This document shows positions 1 to 5,560 of a stretch of DNA of 38,703 bases, in pieces. Origin of the DNA: Chthonomonadaceae bacterium (GTDB lineage Bacteria; Armatimonadota; Chthonomonadetes; Chthonomonadales; Chthonomonadaceae); NCBI GenBank assembly GCA_027450145.1, contig DAIDKH010000042.1:1-38703 (forward strand), given 5' to 3'. Within the stretch, counting starts at the first letter, position 1. Each line of letters opens with the position of its first letter. The notes below the pieces were generated by a model, which made no database searches, was not told the origin of the DNA, and worked only from the letters and a program-made list of their open reading frames with translations. A program made the translations under genes and the position numbers.

Positions 1-507
1 AACGATGTGCAGCCCTGCCATTCTAGCGAGTTGGGTTGCTGCAATCCCCACGCCGCCGGACGCACCTCGAATGAGCACAGTCTGACCGGGGCGAGCTTTC
101 GCCACCTGAAAAAGGGCCCTCCATGCCGTTGCATACGGAATTCCTATCGCTGCGCCTTGGGCAAAATTTAACTCATCAGGTAGGGCGCGGATTTGATCCG
201 CTGAGCACAGAGCGTGGTCGGCGTATGTACCTGTGGCCGAGCCAAACAGATAGACTCGATCTCCTTCTGAATAGTGACGCACGTTATTACCGAGGGCAAC
301 TATAGTGCCTGCTCCGTCGAATCCAGGCGTGTACGGGAGCTGCGGTAACTTGCCATAAGCGCCAGATCGAATGTAGGTGTCAACGGGATTAACTCCTACG
401 GCAGCTAATTGCACAAGCACCTCGTTAGCAGCGGGTAACGGCGTCTCTACCGCTTCAATATGCATCACGGACGGAGGCCCAAAGGAATTAACTATAATCT
501 TTTTCAT
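1..507 (-). CDS. NADPH:quinone oxidoreductase / zinc-type alcohol dehydrogenase-like protein, 5' part (runs off the left edge)
   Basis: The reverse strand opens with ATG at 507 and reads 169 codons without a stop to the window edge, so the C-terminal half is missing. The N-terminus MKKIIVNSFGPPSVMHIE is typical of the zeta-crystallin/QOR branch of medium-chain dehydrogenases. Further in are the GroES-like fold signatures GVNPVDTYIRSG and YTPGFDGAGTI, and near the edge the start of the Rossmann nucleotide-binding domain (GQTVLIRGASGGVGIAATQLA). QOR-family enzymes reduce quinones or enones with NADPH and lack catalytic zinc; no zinc-ligand cysteine pattern appears in the visible part. It is divergent from the riboswitch-flgM unit on its right. 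The family is clear; the substrate cannot be told. Confidence 0.88.
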   Translation of the reverse strand, partial: MKKIIVNSFGPPSVMHIEAVETPLPAANEVLVQLAAVGVNPVDTYIRSGAYGKLPQLPYTPGFDGAGTIVALGNNVRHYSEGDRVYLFGSATGTYADHALCSADQIRALPDELNFAQGAAIGIPYATAWRALFQVAKARPGQTVLIRGASGGVGIAATQLARMAGLHIV

Positions 508-563: not shown

Positions 564-589
564 AGATAACCAATAATGGGTAGTGAAGG

Positions 590-696
590 GTGATGAAAAG
601 GCAAATTCGTAGAAATGCGAAGACGCAAAGCCATGGACCTAAGCAACTAGTGGTAGTAAGATTGCCTACTAGTGTATGGTAGCCAGGTTGCCGTCC
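590..696 (+). promoter_or_regulatory. Cyclic-di-GMP-I (GEMM-I) riboswitch aptamer
   Basis: The conserved GEMM-I blocks occur in order. GGCAAA at 600-605 is followed by a short hairpin capped by a GAAA tetraloop (about 606-621, TTCGTA/TGCGAA). Next come GACGCAAAGCC at 622-632 and CCTAAG at 638-643, a variable hairpin with an ACTAGT-type stem at about 646-674, then GGTAGCC at 678-684 and GGTTGCCG at 686-693. GGCAA (600-604) can pair with TTGCC (688-692), closing the domain. GEMM-I RNAs bind c-di-GMP (established family knowledge). The aptamer ends about 55 bases before the ATG of the FlgM-like gene. Between them are two overlapping alternative hairpins, GACAAT/ATTGTC (about 699-722) and GGTGGA/TCCACC (about 707-727), which could serve as an expression platform. 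Whether the ligand turns expression on or off cannot be read from the sequence. Confidence 0.93.
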
Positions 697-749
697 TAGA
701 CAATCCGGTGGAGATTATTGTCCACCTATGCAAAGTCTGGAGGCAAATT

Positions 750-1058
750 ATGCAGATCTCTATGGGCGAAGTTAATCGCCTGCTCGCTCAGGTTGGGGCG
801 GTTCGGGATGGTCATCAAAACAGCAACGATCAATTCGTACTCAGCGAAGCGGTTGTAAAGGAAAGTGGCCATCAATCGGAAGCGAACGAGCGTGAGATTG
901 ATATGGTCTTGATGGAACTGGATCGTCTACCAGATACCAGAGAAGACCGCGTTGCGGCTCTTAAAATGCAAATTGAACGAGGTGAGTACAACGTTTCGTC
1001 GGATGACATCGCGGATCTCATCATTCGACGATGTTTGGCAGATAACACCGCGTCATAA
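750..1058 (+). CDS. flgM: FlgM-like anti-sigma-28 factor under a c-di-GMP riboswitch
   Basis: This is a 102-residue protein. Its last 40 residues match the FlgM C-terminal sigma-binding region: LPDTREDRVAALKMQIERG, then EYNVSSDDIADLII. FlgM binds and holds the flagellar sigma factor (SigD/FliA) until export or release. The length is close to the family's usual 90-100. The N-terminal half (MQISMGEVNRLLAQVGAV, then a polar linker) is not conserved, as is usual for the disordered half of FlgM. I chose ATG 750 because TGGAGG lies 7-12 bases upstream; an in-frame ATG at 674 falls inside the riboswitch and would encode the aptamer. No flagellar or sigma-28 gene is in the window, so the partner sigma is unknown. 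Expression is probably set by the upstream c-di-GMP riboswitch. Confidence 0.75.
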   Translation: MQISMGEVNRLLAQVGAVRDGHQNSNDQFVLSEAVVKESGHQSEANEREIDMVLMELDRLPDTREDRVAALKMQIERGEYNVSSDDIADLIIRRCLADNTAS

Positions 1059-1065
1059 TAAGTGT

Positions 1066-1100
1066 AGCGGCTTGGATTTGGTGAGACAATCCAAGCCGCT
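1066..1100. terminator. Hairpin between convergent flgM-like gene and parB
   Basis: A perfect 13-bp stem (1066-1078 with 1088-1100) and a 9-base loop lie just after the FlgM-like stop codon and before the end of convergent parB. On the plus strand it is followed by TTGT...TTTTGTG, a weak U-rich tract. It may serve both directions. Confidence 0.65.
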
Positions 1101-1131
1101 TTGTACTGCCTTTTGTGAGTTTGTGCTACCC

Positions 1132-2058
1132 CTAATTTAGCGGATTAATTGAAACAAGCAGATCGAATAATCGTGCTAAATCATCTTCGCTGTAGAATTC
1201 GATTTCTAGTTTGCCCACGCCTGTATTTGCCCACTTAAGGTTCACGCGCGTTTGAAGGATTTGCTGCAGGTCATCGACTACTCTTGCGTTAAAGGGTTCG
1301 GTGCCATTGCCATTCTCAGTCAGTGCGTGCGAAGATGAGTCGCTTGGGGGCCGTGTGTATACGTCTTGCTGTAGATCTGGGGTGCCGGTTCCGGAATGCG
1401 CCTTTGCCTCGCGAGCTAAACGCTCTGTTTCTCTCACGGACAGACCACGGCGTTTAATGACATCCCAGATCATTAACATCGCCTCATGTTTGTCTGCCAT
1501 TAGCAATGCACGGCCATGCCCTTCAGAGATTTCACCGATCTCAACACTGTTCTGGATCTGTTCAGGAAGCTGAAGCAGTCGGAGAGCATTGGAAATAGCA
1601 GGTCGACTTTTACCTACTCGAATTGCTATCTGATCTTGCGAAATTCCGAATTCGGTTACCATCCGATGGTATGCCCGTGCTGCCTCAATTGCCGAGATGT
1701 CTGCACGTTGAATGTTTTCTACAAGTGCCTTCTCAAGCATGTCACGATTGCTGAAGGACTTAACGATGCACGGTACTGTTCCAAAGCCCAGGCGCTCTGC
1801 TGCACGAAATCGTCGTTCTCCGGCTAAAATCTGATATTTATCAGCCCCAATCTGGTTAAGAAGGATCGGCTGGAGAATACCGTGCTCGCGAATAGACAAC
1901 TCCAGGTCAGCTATTGATTGGGAATCAAATTGCGACCTGGGTTGATATGGATTTGGTACAATTTGGTTTAGAGGAATCTCTCTAATAAGGTTGCCCGGAG
2001 GAAGTGCTGATTCCGACAGAAGAGCCTCCAGTCCTCTTCCGAGACCTCGTTTCGCCAT
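1132..2058 (-). CDS. parB: Chromosome-partitioning protein ParB (Spo0J family)
   Basis: This 308-residue ParB begins MAKRGLGRGLEALLSE, the typical N-terminus. It has the N-terminal CTPase/ParB domain (residues about 25-115) with the GERRFRA motif at 80-86. A helix-turn-helix region at about 135-162 (GISQDQIAIRVGKSRPAI) binds parS, and a C-terminal dimerisation domain follows. ParB loads at parS, spreads as a CTP-dependent clamp and works with ParA to segregate origins. Its ATG lies inside the 3' end of parA in another frame (77-base overlap) with AGGAGTT upstream, implying translational coupling. A parS-like site lies in the neighbouring parA. The family call is secure. Confidence 0.96.
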   Translation of the reverse strand: MAKRGLGRGLEALLSESALPPGNLIREIPLNQIVPNPYQPRSQFDSQSIADLELSIREHGILQPILLNQIGADKYQILAGERRFRAAERLGFGTVPCIVKSFSNRDMLEKALVENIQRADISAIEAARAYHRMVTEFGISQDQIAIRVGKSRPAISNALRLLQLPEQIQNSVEIGEISEGHGRALLMADKHEAMLMIWDVIKRRGLSVRETERLAREAKAHSGTGTPDLQQDVYTRPPSDSSSHALTENGNGTEPFNARVVDDLQQILQTRVNLKWANTGVGKLEIEFYSEDDLARLFDLLVSINPLN

Positions 2059-2812
2059 CGATTAGTAACTCCTGTGCGAGCTTCTTATATGCTAATGCGC
2101 CTCTTGATTTTGGATCATACAACGCGATAGGAAGACCGTGGCTTGGTGCTTCCGAGAGTCGAATGTTCCGGGGCACCTGCGTTGAGGAGACACGGTCGTT
2201 AAAATGACGGAGCACTTCCTCCGCAACTTGCTGTGCGAGCTTTGTGCGGGTGTCCGCCATAGTAAGTATAACCATAGCAACTTCCAATTGGGGATTTATG
2301 TGCTGCCTCACCATTTCTATTGTTCGAACTAAGTGACTGATACCTTCCAATGCGAAGTATTCGGTCTGGATTGGCAGTATCAGTGCATCCGCAGCGCACA
2401 ATGCGTTTAAAGTTAGCAGCCCCAAGGACGGTGGTGCATCTGTAATCACGTAATCGTAGTTAGACGCTTCGTTGGTCAGTGCATTGCGCAAGACCGTTTC
2501 ACGTGAAATCCGGGGCATGAGCTCAACTTCCGCAGCAGCCAGTTCCAATGTGGCTGGTAGCACATCCAGGTTTTCTACAGCACAACTCATTACGCAATCA
2601 CGAACGGACCTTCCGTTCACCAGCACATCGTAAACAGAAAGGTCAATGTTTGAACGTCGAATTCCTAGTCCACTTGTAGCATTGCCTTGTGGATCGGTAT
2701 CAACAACGAGAACCCTGGCCCCAGAAAGTGCAAGGTAGGCGCTGATGTTTACAGCTGTGGTTGTCTTCCCAACGCCACCTTTTTGATTTACAACTGCGTA
2801 AACAACAGCCAA
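1982..2812 (-). CDS. parA: Chromosome-partitioning ATPase ParA (Soj family)
   Basis: The protein is a MinD/ParA ATPase with the deviant Walker A motif NQKGGVGKTTT near the N-terminus and the switch motif VVDTDPQGN. Later blocks include DYVITDAPPSLG and LPIQTEYFALEGI. ParA forms ATP-dependent gradients on the nucleoid that move ParB-parS complexes. I chose the TTG at 2812 (AVVYAVVNQKGG): GGAGG lies six bases upstream, and a good promoter (-10 at 2841-2846) would start the transcript near 2834. An ATG at 2830 is in frame but has no ribosome-binding site; the longer frame from 2932 would begin upstream of the promoter. With the TTG start the length is 276 residues, normal for Soj. It overlaps parB by 77 bases. 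Confidence 0.95.
   Translation of the reverse strand: MAVVYAVVNQKGGVGKTTTAVNISAYLALSGARVLVVDTDPQGNATSGLGIRRSNIDLSVYDVLVNGRSVRDCVMSCAVENLDVLPATLELAAAEVELMPRISRETVLRNALTNEASNYDYVITDAPPSLGLLTLNALCAADALILPIQTEYFALEGISHLVRTIEMVRQHINPQLEVAMVILTMADTRTKLAQQVAEEVLRHFNDRVSSTQVPRNIRLSEAPSHGLPIALYDPKSRGALAYKKLAQELLIDGETRSRKRTGGSSVGISTSSGQPY
2495..2510. promoter_or_regulatory. parS-like ParB-binding site inside parA
   Basis: CGTTTCACGTGAAATC contains a perfect 12-bp palindrome (TTTCACGTGAAA). It matches 13 of 16 positions of the well-known consensus TGTTTCACGTGAAACA, differing only at the outer bases. Location inside parA, next to parB, is typical for chromosomal parS. I found no second copy in the window. 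Confidence 0.85.
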
Positions 2813-2840
2813 GAAGGTCCTCCGTCGCATTGATGGGTAG

Positions 2841-2870
2841 AGTATACTCCTAAACGGAAACCTCAGCCAA
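2841..2870 (-). promoter_or_regulatory. Promoter of parAB
   Basis: On the minus strand TTGGCT (2870-2865) and TATACT (2846-2841) are separated by 18 bases. Transcription would begin near 2834, 20 bases before the TTG start of parA, leaving room for its GGAGG. Confidence 0.6.
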
Positions 2871-2908
2871 CAGCGGCATACTTGTTTAAGCAGGAGGTAG
2901 TCGGTTTC

Positions 2909-5560
2909 ATGAGGAGCTTGTCGGATGTACAACAGCGAGCGGCTTGTACCGAACTCCCCAATGTTGCACTAAGTGCCGGCGCCGGGTCGGGTAAAACATC
3001 GGTTATCGTAGAGCGTATTATTAATCTAATTTCAGCCTCTGCGTCGGAATCGCCGTCTAGTACAATAAACAATATTCTGGCAGTCACCTTCACTGACAAA
3101 GCAGCCCGTGAATTAAAAGAGAGGCTGGTTCAGCGTCTTACAGACGACGCAATGTTAGAAGAGCGGCGTCAAATTGAGACAGCGTTCATATGCACAATAC
3201 ATGCTCTTTGTGCCCGCCTGTTACAGGAAAACCCATTTGAGGCAGGTCTAAACCCGGGATTTGAGGTGCTGGCCGGCGAGGGATCCAATGATCTGATTAG
3301 AAGTGCGCTCTCCCAGTCAATCCAAATCGGAGCCGAGGGGCACAGTGACTACTCCTTTATTATTCGTACAATAAGCCAGTGGGGTAGTGCAGTTTCGCCT
3401 GACTTGTTTCTAATGGACGCTGTAATCGATGTCCTTCTGGAATTGAGGGGTTCGGGCTGTTTCGTCGAGGACTTGATGCAAAAAATAGGCACTTCTGACC
3501 AGGAATACCGGCAGACGCTCTCGGAGAAAGCCAATTCCCTTGTCGGCTTCGTCATGCCGAGAGCGCTAGCGGCACTGAAGACTATTGAATTATTGATGCA
3601 CGCTGTACCTGTTAAAGTCGCAAGAAACATTCAAAATCTCGTTAGCCTCATACATAGATTTAACGATGAACCTCAACTTTTGGAGCGAATTAATGTTGGT
3701 AGAGAGGTTGAGAAGTCGTTAGCAAGTCTCATTGCTACAGGTATACTTCCCCAAAGTCTTCAGGAGTCGCTAGTTGCTCTGCAATTCTCCCTTCAATTTG
3801 CAAAGCAGTTAAAACCAGTAGACAGATCTCTTCAAGAAGAAGCATTTGACCTTTCTGTATCGCTCATGTCTCTGGTTGTGATCGTTTGGAAGAACTACAC
3901 CACTGCGAAATCGAACATAAACGCAATTGATATTGATGACCTGCAAGAATTGGCCGTTAGGCTTCTGGAGGGCAATGCGAATGTCGCTAAACGTTATCGG
4001 GAGCGGTTCAAACATATCATTGTCGACGAATTTCAAGACACAAGTCTAGTTCAAATGAGACTGCTAAATTCCTTGCGTGGTCCCAATAAGGACGTAACTA
4101 ACCAGTTTTTCGTTGTTGGTGATCGTCAGCAGTCTATCTACTCGTTCCGCAACGCCAATCCTGATCTCTTCGGCTCGTTATGCCGGGAGTTCGGTTCTTC
4201 GACCATTGGCAGTCACATAACTTTGGAGGACAATTACCGAACGCATCCCAGCCTGCTCATGGCAATAAACGGGCTGTTCACAAATCTATGGGCGAATACT
4301 GACCATCCGTTGCAGCACCAAATTGCGATGCGCGCTGCGGAAGATGATGTACTACGCTTCGAGCTACTAATTTCTGCAGGGCTTAGAGGCGACTATTATC
4401 GTCGCGATGAAGCAGCCGCACTCGCAAACCGAATTTTAGATCTGGTTAATTCGAGTACCAAATTAGTTTACGATAGATCAAATCAATTGCGGCGTGTTCA
4501 ATATGGGGACATCGCCATTGTGATGAGAAGCCTTAAGGACCTGCGTTACATCGAACAGGAATTCTTGAAGGCCAATATACCGCATTTTGTAATTGGGGGT
4601 GTTAGGGGCTACTTCAGCCGAAGCGAAATAAGGGATGTCGTAAACGTCCTTGCGCTAATCACTGAACCTCATGATGATCTTGCATTTGCAGCCCTGCTAC
4701 GTAGCCCCTTTGTTGGATTAAGCATGGATAGCGTAACAGACATCGTTAACTGTGTGAATAGCGCGCTCTCCCCAATGTGTCTATATATGGCCGTACAAAC
4801 CCAGGCTGTTCAAGCGAAATTGGGTGAGCACCAAAGCACGCGGATCCTGACTATAACGAGGCTACTAGATTCGTTGAGAGATCAGCATTCCACCATGAGG
4901 CCGTCCGACCTGTTGCAGCGAATCGTAGATGAGACGGAATACGATTCCAGGTTGTTGGTGCGTGCAAACGGCCGGCGCAAGCTCGCTAACCTCCGTAAAT
5001 TGCAGGCGCTAGCGGCAAGCGAAGAGACCTACGGGGTACGGTCATTCATACAAAAACTCCAAAGCCTGACTGAGCTGTCTGAGCGCGAAGGGGATGCACC
5101 GACTGAGGAGGAGGATGCCAATGTAGTGCGCCTACTCACCATACACAGCGCGAAAGGACTCGAATTTCCGGTTGTCATAGTAACCGATCTTGGTCGGCCC
5201 CTGATGCGTCGCGAAAACCGTGCATTTGTCTGTGACGGTTCGTCGCAAACCTTAGGTGTGAGTGTGGACGGTGTGCCGGACATCATCTACCAGCTCCTCG
5301 TGAGTGCGCGCGAGGAGCGGGAGCGTGCAGAGTACCTGCGCTTGCTATATGTCGCGATGACCCGTGCTAGAGATTACCTTATACTCGCGGGCGATGTAAT
5401 ACCCGTGAAGGGTTTTAACTGGGCCTCTTATGTCTTCCCATCGCTCGGGATTCTAGAAGAACCGCGTATCCCACAAGTGGTCAAATTAGTCGGGGGACAC
5501 TCGGCGCTCGTTTCACCAATTTCGTATTATGCACGTCGTAAGCCTACGACGATAGACTAA
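2909..5560 (+). CDS. UvrD/AddA-like superfamily 1 helicase without nuclease domain
   Basis: This 883-residue protein carries the SF1A helicase motifs in order: Walker A SAGAGSGKT (residues about 22-30), AVTFTDKAARELKERL, Walker B DEFQDTS (about 373), VVGDRQQSIYSFRNA, LEDNYRTHP, LTIHSAKGLEFPVVI (about 740) and LLYVAMTRARDYL (about 812). The KGLEFPVVI and TDLG details resemble the AddA/RecB branch more than UvrD/PcrA. Such enzymes unwind DNA ends for recombinational repair. AddA is about 1,200 residues with a C-terminal nuclease; here the protein stops about 70 residues after motif VI, so nuclease and AddB partner are absent from view. ATG 2909 was chosen for AGGAGGT at 2892-2898; a TTG at 2882 is the alternative. 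Its end overlaps the convergent subtilase gene by 48 bases. Confidence 0.85.
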   Translation: MRSLSDVQQRAACTELPNVALSAGAGSGKTSVIVERIINLISASASESPSSTINNILAVTFTDKAARELKERLVQRLTDDAMLEERRQIETAFICTIHALCARLLQENPFEAGLNPGFEVLAGEGSNDLIRSALSQSIQIGAEGHSDYSFIIRTISQWGSAVSPDLFLMDAVIDVLLELRGSGCFVEDLMQKIGTSDQEYRQTLSEKANSLVGFVMPRALAALKTIELLMHAVPVKVARNIQNLVSLIHRFNDEPQLLERINVGREVEKSLASLIATGILPQSLQESLVALQFSLQFAKQLKPVDRSLQEEAFDLSVSLMSLVVIVWKNYTTAKSNINAIDIDDLQELAVRLLEGNANVAKRYRERFKHIIVDEFQDTSLVQMRLLNSLRGPNKDVTNQFFVVGDRQQSIYSFRNANPDLFGSLCREFGSSTIGSHITLEDNYRTHPSLLMAINGLFTNLWANTDHPLQHQIAMRAAEDDVLRFELLISAGLRGDYYRRDEAAALANRILDLVNSSTKLVYDRSNQLRRVQYGDIAIVMRSLKDLRYIEQEFLKANIPHFVIGGVRGYFSRSEIRDVVNVLALITEPHDDLAFAALLRSPFVGLSMDSVTDIVNCVNSALSPMCLYMAVQTQAVQAKLGEHQSTRILTITRLLDSLRDQHSTMRPSDLLQRIVDETEYDSRLLVRANGRRKLANLRKLQALAASEETYGVRSFIQKLQSLTELSEREGDAPTEEEDANVVRLLTIHSAKGLEFPVVIVTDLGRPLMRRENRAFVCDGSSQTLGVSVDGVPDIIYQLLVSAREERERAEYLRLLYVAMTRARDYLILAGDVIPVKGFNWASYVFPSLGILEEPRIPQVVKLVGGHSALVSPISYYARRKPTTID

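Follow-up and report, generated by a model that had tools for sequence, protein, structure and literature searches.

The window, meaning the whole stretch of 38,703 nt that was analysed, belongs to a 4.14 Mb genome (96.7% complete) of the Chthonomonadales, Armatimonadota. Close to its start, the forward strand carries a c-di-GMP-I (GEMM-I) aptamer (590-695) followed by flgM (750-1058), predicted to encode an anti-sigma-28 factor of 102 aa (MQISMGEVNRLL...IADLIIRRCLADNTAS). Upstream is a divergent gene for an oxidoreductase (about 1-506, reverse strand) and downstream is a convergent parB/parA pair (1132-2932, reverse strand). A strong stem-loop (1065-1101, forward strand; -25 kcal/mol, z -5.5) separates flgM from parB, and because this structure follows the gene, flgM looks monocistronic. 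The stem-loop is without a classical U-run and was not called by the terminator scan; it is a possible two-way terminator. In G017 and G042, both distant genomes, a parA gene is also present 3' of the aptamer and flgM, which suggests that the linkage of flgM to parAB is old.

The aptamer is the sole Rfam match found by cmscan in the whole window. It aligns with the full length of RF01051 (model positions 1-87) at 73.1 bits, with an E-value of 1.2e-12 computed over the whole window; the gathering score of this family is 35 bits. The alignment includes the GNRA tetraloop and the core blocks GACGCAAAGCC, CCUAAG and GUAGCC...UUGCC. The 5' hairpin pairs 606-611 with 616-621 around a GAAA loop (612-615), and the base of the 3' hairpin pairs AGCC (629-632) with GGUU (686-689), all on the forward strand. 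As in the RF01051 class at large, sequence and structure together score above the gathering score over the full length; here the gene under predicted control encodes an anti-sigma factor. A genome search identified it as the only GEMM-I copy in this genome.

The flgM reading frame extends from ATG750 to a stop at 1058 and has a Shine-Dalgarno (SD) sequence, GGAGG, at 739-743. Its product matches the Pfam FlgM family (PF04316) with 44.9 bits (cut-off 25 bits, E-value 1.4e-11) over residues 53-92, the C-terminal sigma-binding part. The NCBIfam equivalog model FlgM_jcvi (TIGR03824) gives 38.0 bits, narrowly below its curated whole-protein cut-off of 40.75, and on these profile scores we assign the protein to the family PF04316 rather than to the equivalog. 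A profile of the family also matches FlgM in solved structures of the sigma-28/FlgM complex (chain 9wsf_B, E-value 1.1e-9; chain 1rp3_B, E-value 6e-4). This is the only FlgM copy identified by a search of the window genome. An earlier note on this DNA had read a GEMM-I riboswitch about 55 bases ahead of a protein with a FlgM-like C-terminus, and had suggested a covariance search and an HMM search as checks. The first gave a strong match, well over the gathering score, the second passed the PF04316 cut-off, and the positions in the note proved exact, with a gap of 54 nt (696-749).

Linkage of the aptamer to flgM across the Armatimonadota

We inspected the DNA 3' of each GEMM-I aptamer in 101 Armatimonadota genomes, a comparison that rests on draft genomes. 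There are 105 such aptamers, distributed over 56 of the genomes. In 41 of the 101, representing 27 genera, an aptamer lies directly before flgM, one per genome and mostly at a spacing of 50-80 nt. For many genomes this is the sole GEMM-I. Relatives in 14 named loci, which were obtained with a narrower FlgM alignment, belong to the Armatimonadota, order Chthonomonadales, and include a MAG filed as Chthonomonas calidirosea.

Other arrangements of GEMM-I were also encountered. Three tandem aptamers (3087-3182, 3002-3093 and 2919-3009) occur in locus L048 (G029:C283:2919-3182, reverse strand), and tandem pairs are present in G040, G049, G062, G078, G004 and G013. In loci L051, L052, L063 and L064 (G004, G013 and G040) GEMM-I, often in tandem, precedes genes for secreted proteins. 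By eye, these look like subtilase-type peptidases; they are another target that recurs in the phylum.

A candidate sigma-28 promoter before the leader

In the enteric FlgM-FliA system, flgM is transcribed by sigma-28. We scored the DNA ahead of the leaders against the consensus TAAAGTTT-N11/12-GCCGATAA over 16 positions; the published flagellar sigma consensus is TAAA with GCCGATAA (PMC8325347). Perfect copies of TAAAGTTT-N12-GCCGATAA precede the aptamer in G047, G060 and G089, and sites with 1-3 mismatches in 16 positions were identified in many other families. The distance from promoter to aptamer in these relatives is steady, at 12-25 nt. The window has a candidate site, TGAAGAGT-N12-ACCAATAA (-35 at 549-556, -10 at 569-576, forward strand), with the position and spacing seen in relatives. 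This copy is degenerate, with 5 of 16 positions mismatched and a shuffle p of about 0.12, which by itself is not significant. From the motif and its placement, sigma-28 probably transcribes the GEMM-flgM leader across the phylum and is likely to do so at the window's own site. Because near-perfect sigma-28 promoters precede the leader in many relatives, FliA-FlgM feedback is implied.

One flagellin gene of G047 has a similar site, TAAAGAAC-N11-ACCGATAA, 92 nt before its start, and clear sigma-28 promoters were not found at the flagellin genes of the window genome. Definition of a genome-wide sigma-28 regulon by strict pattern was abandoned, as it returned only 0-3 matches per genome, near the reversed control; such matches were kept only where they precede a flagellin.

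Sigma factors and flagellar genes

The window genome encodes two FliA_WhiG sigma factors (235.3 and 233.3 bits; curated cut-off 189.6), as well as FlhA and several flagellins. A search for a FliA/SigD homologue, also suggested by the earlier note, thus has a positive answer twice over. That note had seen no flagellar genes nearby, which is correct in that none adjoins flgM, and had raised a different role for the sigma factor on this basis. We dropped this suggestion, since a genome that carries FlhA and several flagellins makes a non-flagellar sigma needless. FlgM and FliA of this genome are predicted to bind each other.

The FliA encoded on contig C6 comes after a MinD/FlhG-like gene. Its best-scoring solved chains are 6pfv and 6pfj, which are taken here as WhiG of Streptomyces with RsiG and c-di-GMP bound. 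The second FliA/WhiG sigma (locus L061, G000:C40:5659-6423, reverse strand) is located away from flagellar genes and is a paralogue found in members of the window's family (f1). In a tree of 61 FliA proteins, the FliA/WhiG sigmas of genomes with GEMM-flgM form one clade (support 99/94) that includes both copies from the window genome. Extra FliA copies that adjoin FlhA in G027, G049, G050, G073 and G098 fall outside it.

Some genomes have additional or missing parts. A second flgM, without GEMM-I, is present near flagellar genes in G027, G050 and G062. GEMM-flgM and FliA are present in two distant relatives, G035 (L172) and G042 (L176), and neither FlhA nor flagellin was found in these draft genomes, for which completeness is estimated at 98-99%. 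The FliA gene of G042 has one in-frame TAA, which suggests decay. G017 has flagellins and FliA (L166 and L243); no FlhA match was found in this 97% complete genome, probably due to an assembly gap.

These distributions bear on whether GEMM-flgM acts on another sigma, a WhiG-like one whose regulon is non-flagellar (pili, surface or development), with flagellar control being incidental. Such a role would suit the genomes that keep a separate, GEMM-less flgM beside their flagellar genes, whereas the window genome has one FlgM and flagellar genes. It would also suit the retention of GEMM-flgM in G035 and G042, but the in-frame stop in the FliA gene of the latter suggests decay, and FlhA is present in 38 of the 41 genomes with GEMM-flgM, compared with 18 of the remaining 60. 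The resemblance of the C6 FliA to chains that are presumably WhiG with RsiG is likewise set against its position behind a MinD/FlhG-like gene. Overall, we consider this alternative unlikely, and favour the flagellar sigma-28 as the target of FlgM in the window genome.

Expression platforms

In the window's order, the leader appears to act through sequestration of the SD. The strand UUGCC-G-UCC-U-AGAC (688-701) is able to pair with GUCU-GGA-GGCAA (735-746), which includes the SD (both on the forward strand). The first of these overlaps the 3' end of the aptamer, comprising the last P3 bases, the conserved GCC and the 3' side of P1; the second mimics the 5' strand of the aptamer, GGCAAA. The duplex has a computed energy of -15.1 kcal/mol, and none of 100 shuffles is as strong. 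Minimum-energy folding of the leader up to the start codon yields this pairing, with a hairpin GGUGGA/UCCACC (707-725, forward strand) nested inside. The nested hairpin is also visible in the leaders of G001 and G002.

The pairing is maintained through compensatory changes: AGGA/UCCU in family f1, AAGG/UCUU in f3 and AAGCG/CGCUU in f15. Among 16 aligned relatives, the SD strand pairs in 88% of cells, compared with 43-59% for slid partners (values for the best-pairing register, the choice of which flatters the figure), and double-sided changes occur at 5 pairs of the SD stem. Of the 113 other ORF starts with an SD in loci of the order, none has the motif GGCAA beside it. In a ligand-free energy model of the window leader, the probability that the SD is unpaired rises from 0.04 when the RNA folds freely to 0.43 when the aptamer is hidden, a partial release, and most relatives of the order follow the same trend. 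By pairing, covariation and accessibility, the computed platform and the ligand-bound aptamer are mutually exclusive.

A transcriptional platform was dropped for the window leader, as the terminator scan found no intrinsic terminator between the aptamer and the ATG. Two overlapping hairpins in this interval, GACAAT (699-704)/ATTGTC (716-721) and GGTGGA (707-712)/TCCACC (720-725), had been put forward by the earlier note as the possible switch. Both exist as sequence, although neither is probably the switch itself. The first is in no predicted fold and by eye is lost from the sequences of the nearest relatives, and the second is nested within the sequestering stem in the predicted fold. Pairing of 688-701 with the SD region at 735-746 is the better-supported switch in the folding model.

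SD sequestration was rejected as a mechanism for the entire phylum. In families f6, f14, f20 and f24, the leaders' own SD pairs do not outscore shuffled or swapped ones, and a convincing expression platform was not found for these four. The leaders of f8 and f19 end in a terminator with a U-tract, and the 5' arm of this terminator is the aptamer's own 5' strand. In G098 the terminator stem consists of AAGGGCAAACUCUUCGAA with UUCGGGUUUGCCUUUUUU. Folding up to the U-tract gives -58 kcal/mol and disrupts the aptamer hairpin, so that in the fold model terminator and aptamer of f8 and f19 are mutually exclusive, and a bound aptamer would block termination. The Geobacter pilM GEMM riboswitch, an ON switch, likewise has a mutually exclusive aptamer and terminator (PMC9262584).

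Direction of switching and proposed circuit

SD pairing and the terminator are unrelated platforms that predict the same sign, therefore c-di-GMP would raise FlgM in both. We thus propose, with a probability of roughly 0.75, that the leader is a c-di-GMP-I riboswitch that turns synthesis of FlgM on, so that an increase in c-di-GMP results in a decrease in sigma-28 activity. When c-di-GMP is low, the 3' end of the aptamer (688-701) would pair with the SD region and flgM would stay untranslated. When c-di-GMP is high, the aptamer and its P1 stem would form, the SD would be freed and FlgM would be made. FlgM would then hold FliA (sigma-28), and sigma-28-dependent genes such as flagellin would fall silent as the cell turns sessile, with late flagellar genes off. 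If sigma-28 itself transcribes the leader, the outcome would be negative feedback between FliA and FlgM with a gain set by c-di-GMP. The earlier note had supposed that c-di-GMP sets the level of an anti-sigma-28 factor through RNA. The covariance match, the FlgM match and the presence of sigma-28 in the genome support that idea, and conservation in 41 genomes greatly strengthens it.

The sign of the response is predicted from the folds. GEMM-I occurs in ON and in OFF switches, Cd1 being one of the latter (PMC9262584), and a window switch by which c-di-GMP lowers FlgM and raises sigma-28 activity might fit a sigma with a non-flagellar regulon or a program of attachment in stages. The fold with the aptamer hidden also leaves the SD about half paired. 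However, the anti-SD strand contains the conserved GCC and the P1 3' side of the aptamer, the terminators of f8 and f19 consume the aptamer's 5' strand, which makes two unrelated designs that predict ON, and we found no leader in which the formed aptamer would hide the SD. An OFF switch is accordingly improbable, and an ON switch remains our reading.

The ligand of the aptamer at 590-695 is predicted to be c-di-GMP. G600 is the putative counterpart of nucleotide 20 in Vc2 numbering. Some GEMM-I aptamers, the GEMM-Ib, select 3',3'-cGAMP, and A or G at nucleotide 20 decides the matter (PMC6456294). The G mapped to this position would be the c-di-GMP form, and the window genome encodes 14 GGDEF domains, some of which might conceivably make cGAMP; recognition of cGAMP in place of c-di-GMP is very unlikely. 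That the riboswitch stands before flgM by accident, or is a decayed remnant, is refuted by recurrence of this junction in 41 independent genomes at a similar spacing, an aptamer in which every element is intact at 73 bits, and the compensatory changes in the SD pairing.

Relation to known systems

In open-access full texts we found no paper that connects flgM or the Armatimonadetes with a c-di-GMP riboswitch, and GEMM-flgM may already have been mentioned in some data table. The aptamer class is known, as are FlgM and FliA; the target and the circuit look new. In the enteric FlgM-FliA checkpoint, the classical input is export of FlgM through the hook-basal body. The window genome has the same pair, a FlgM homologue and a FliA sigma, to which we propose an added RNA input from c-di-GMP.

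The Cd1 riboswitch of Clostridioides difficile, located before the flgB operon, is a GEMM-I leader through which c-di-GMP lowers flagellar output (PMC9262584). The same outcome is predicted here by a different route: in Cd1, an OFF switch acts on transcription of a flagellar operon, whereas in the window the inhibitor FlgM is predicted to be under an ON switch, which in the window's order would be translational. The pilM riboswitch of Geobacter responds to cGAMP and has a pilus target (PMC9262584), and it differs from the window system, which is predicted to use SD pairing in place of a terminator. In Streptomyces and Rubrobacter, c-di-GMP strengthens the anti-sigma factor RsiG against WhiG, a FliA/WhiG-type sigma with TAAA/GCCGATAA promoters (PMC8325347). 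The proposed common theme is that c-di-GMP arms an anti-sigma factor against a sigma of this type. It does so in RsiG-WhiG by binding to the anti-sigma protein, while in the window system RNA is the predicted sensor and the anti-sigma factor is FlgM.

Because GEMM-flgM is kept without FlhA or flagellin in some genomes and beside a separate flagellar FliA-FlgM in others, GEMM-I, FlgM and a WhiG-like FliA might conceivably constitute an ancient, self-contained output device for c-di-GMP in the Armatimonadota that is workable without flagella. We hold this view only tentatively, and doubt it more than we credit it. If true, such a module would parallel, at the level of RNA, the protein switch RsiG-WhiG.

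If the proposed circuit is correct, c-di-GMP would reach the flagellar sigma factor directly through RNA, by way of raised FlgM and not by repression of flagellar operons. The circuit would also be a second way, besides RsiG-WhiG, for c-di-GMP to arm an anti-sigma factor against the FliA/WhiG clade. The ON logic that two unrelated expression platforms would have in common offers a clean natural comparison. The phylum in which the system is conserved has received little study; one representative, Chthonomonas calidirosea, is in culture, so that direct tests are feasible.
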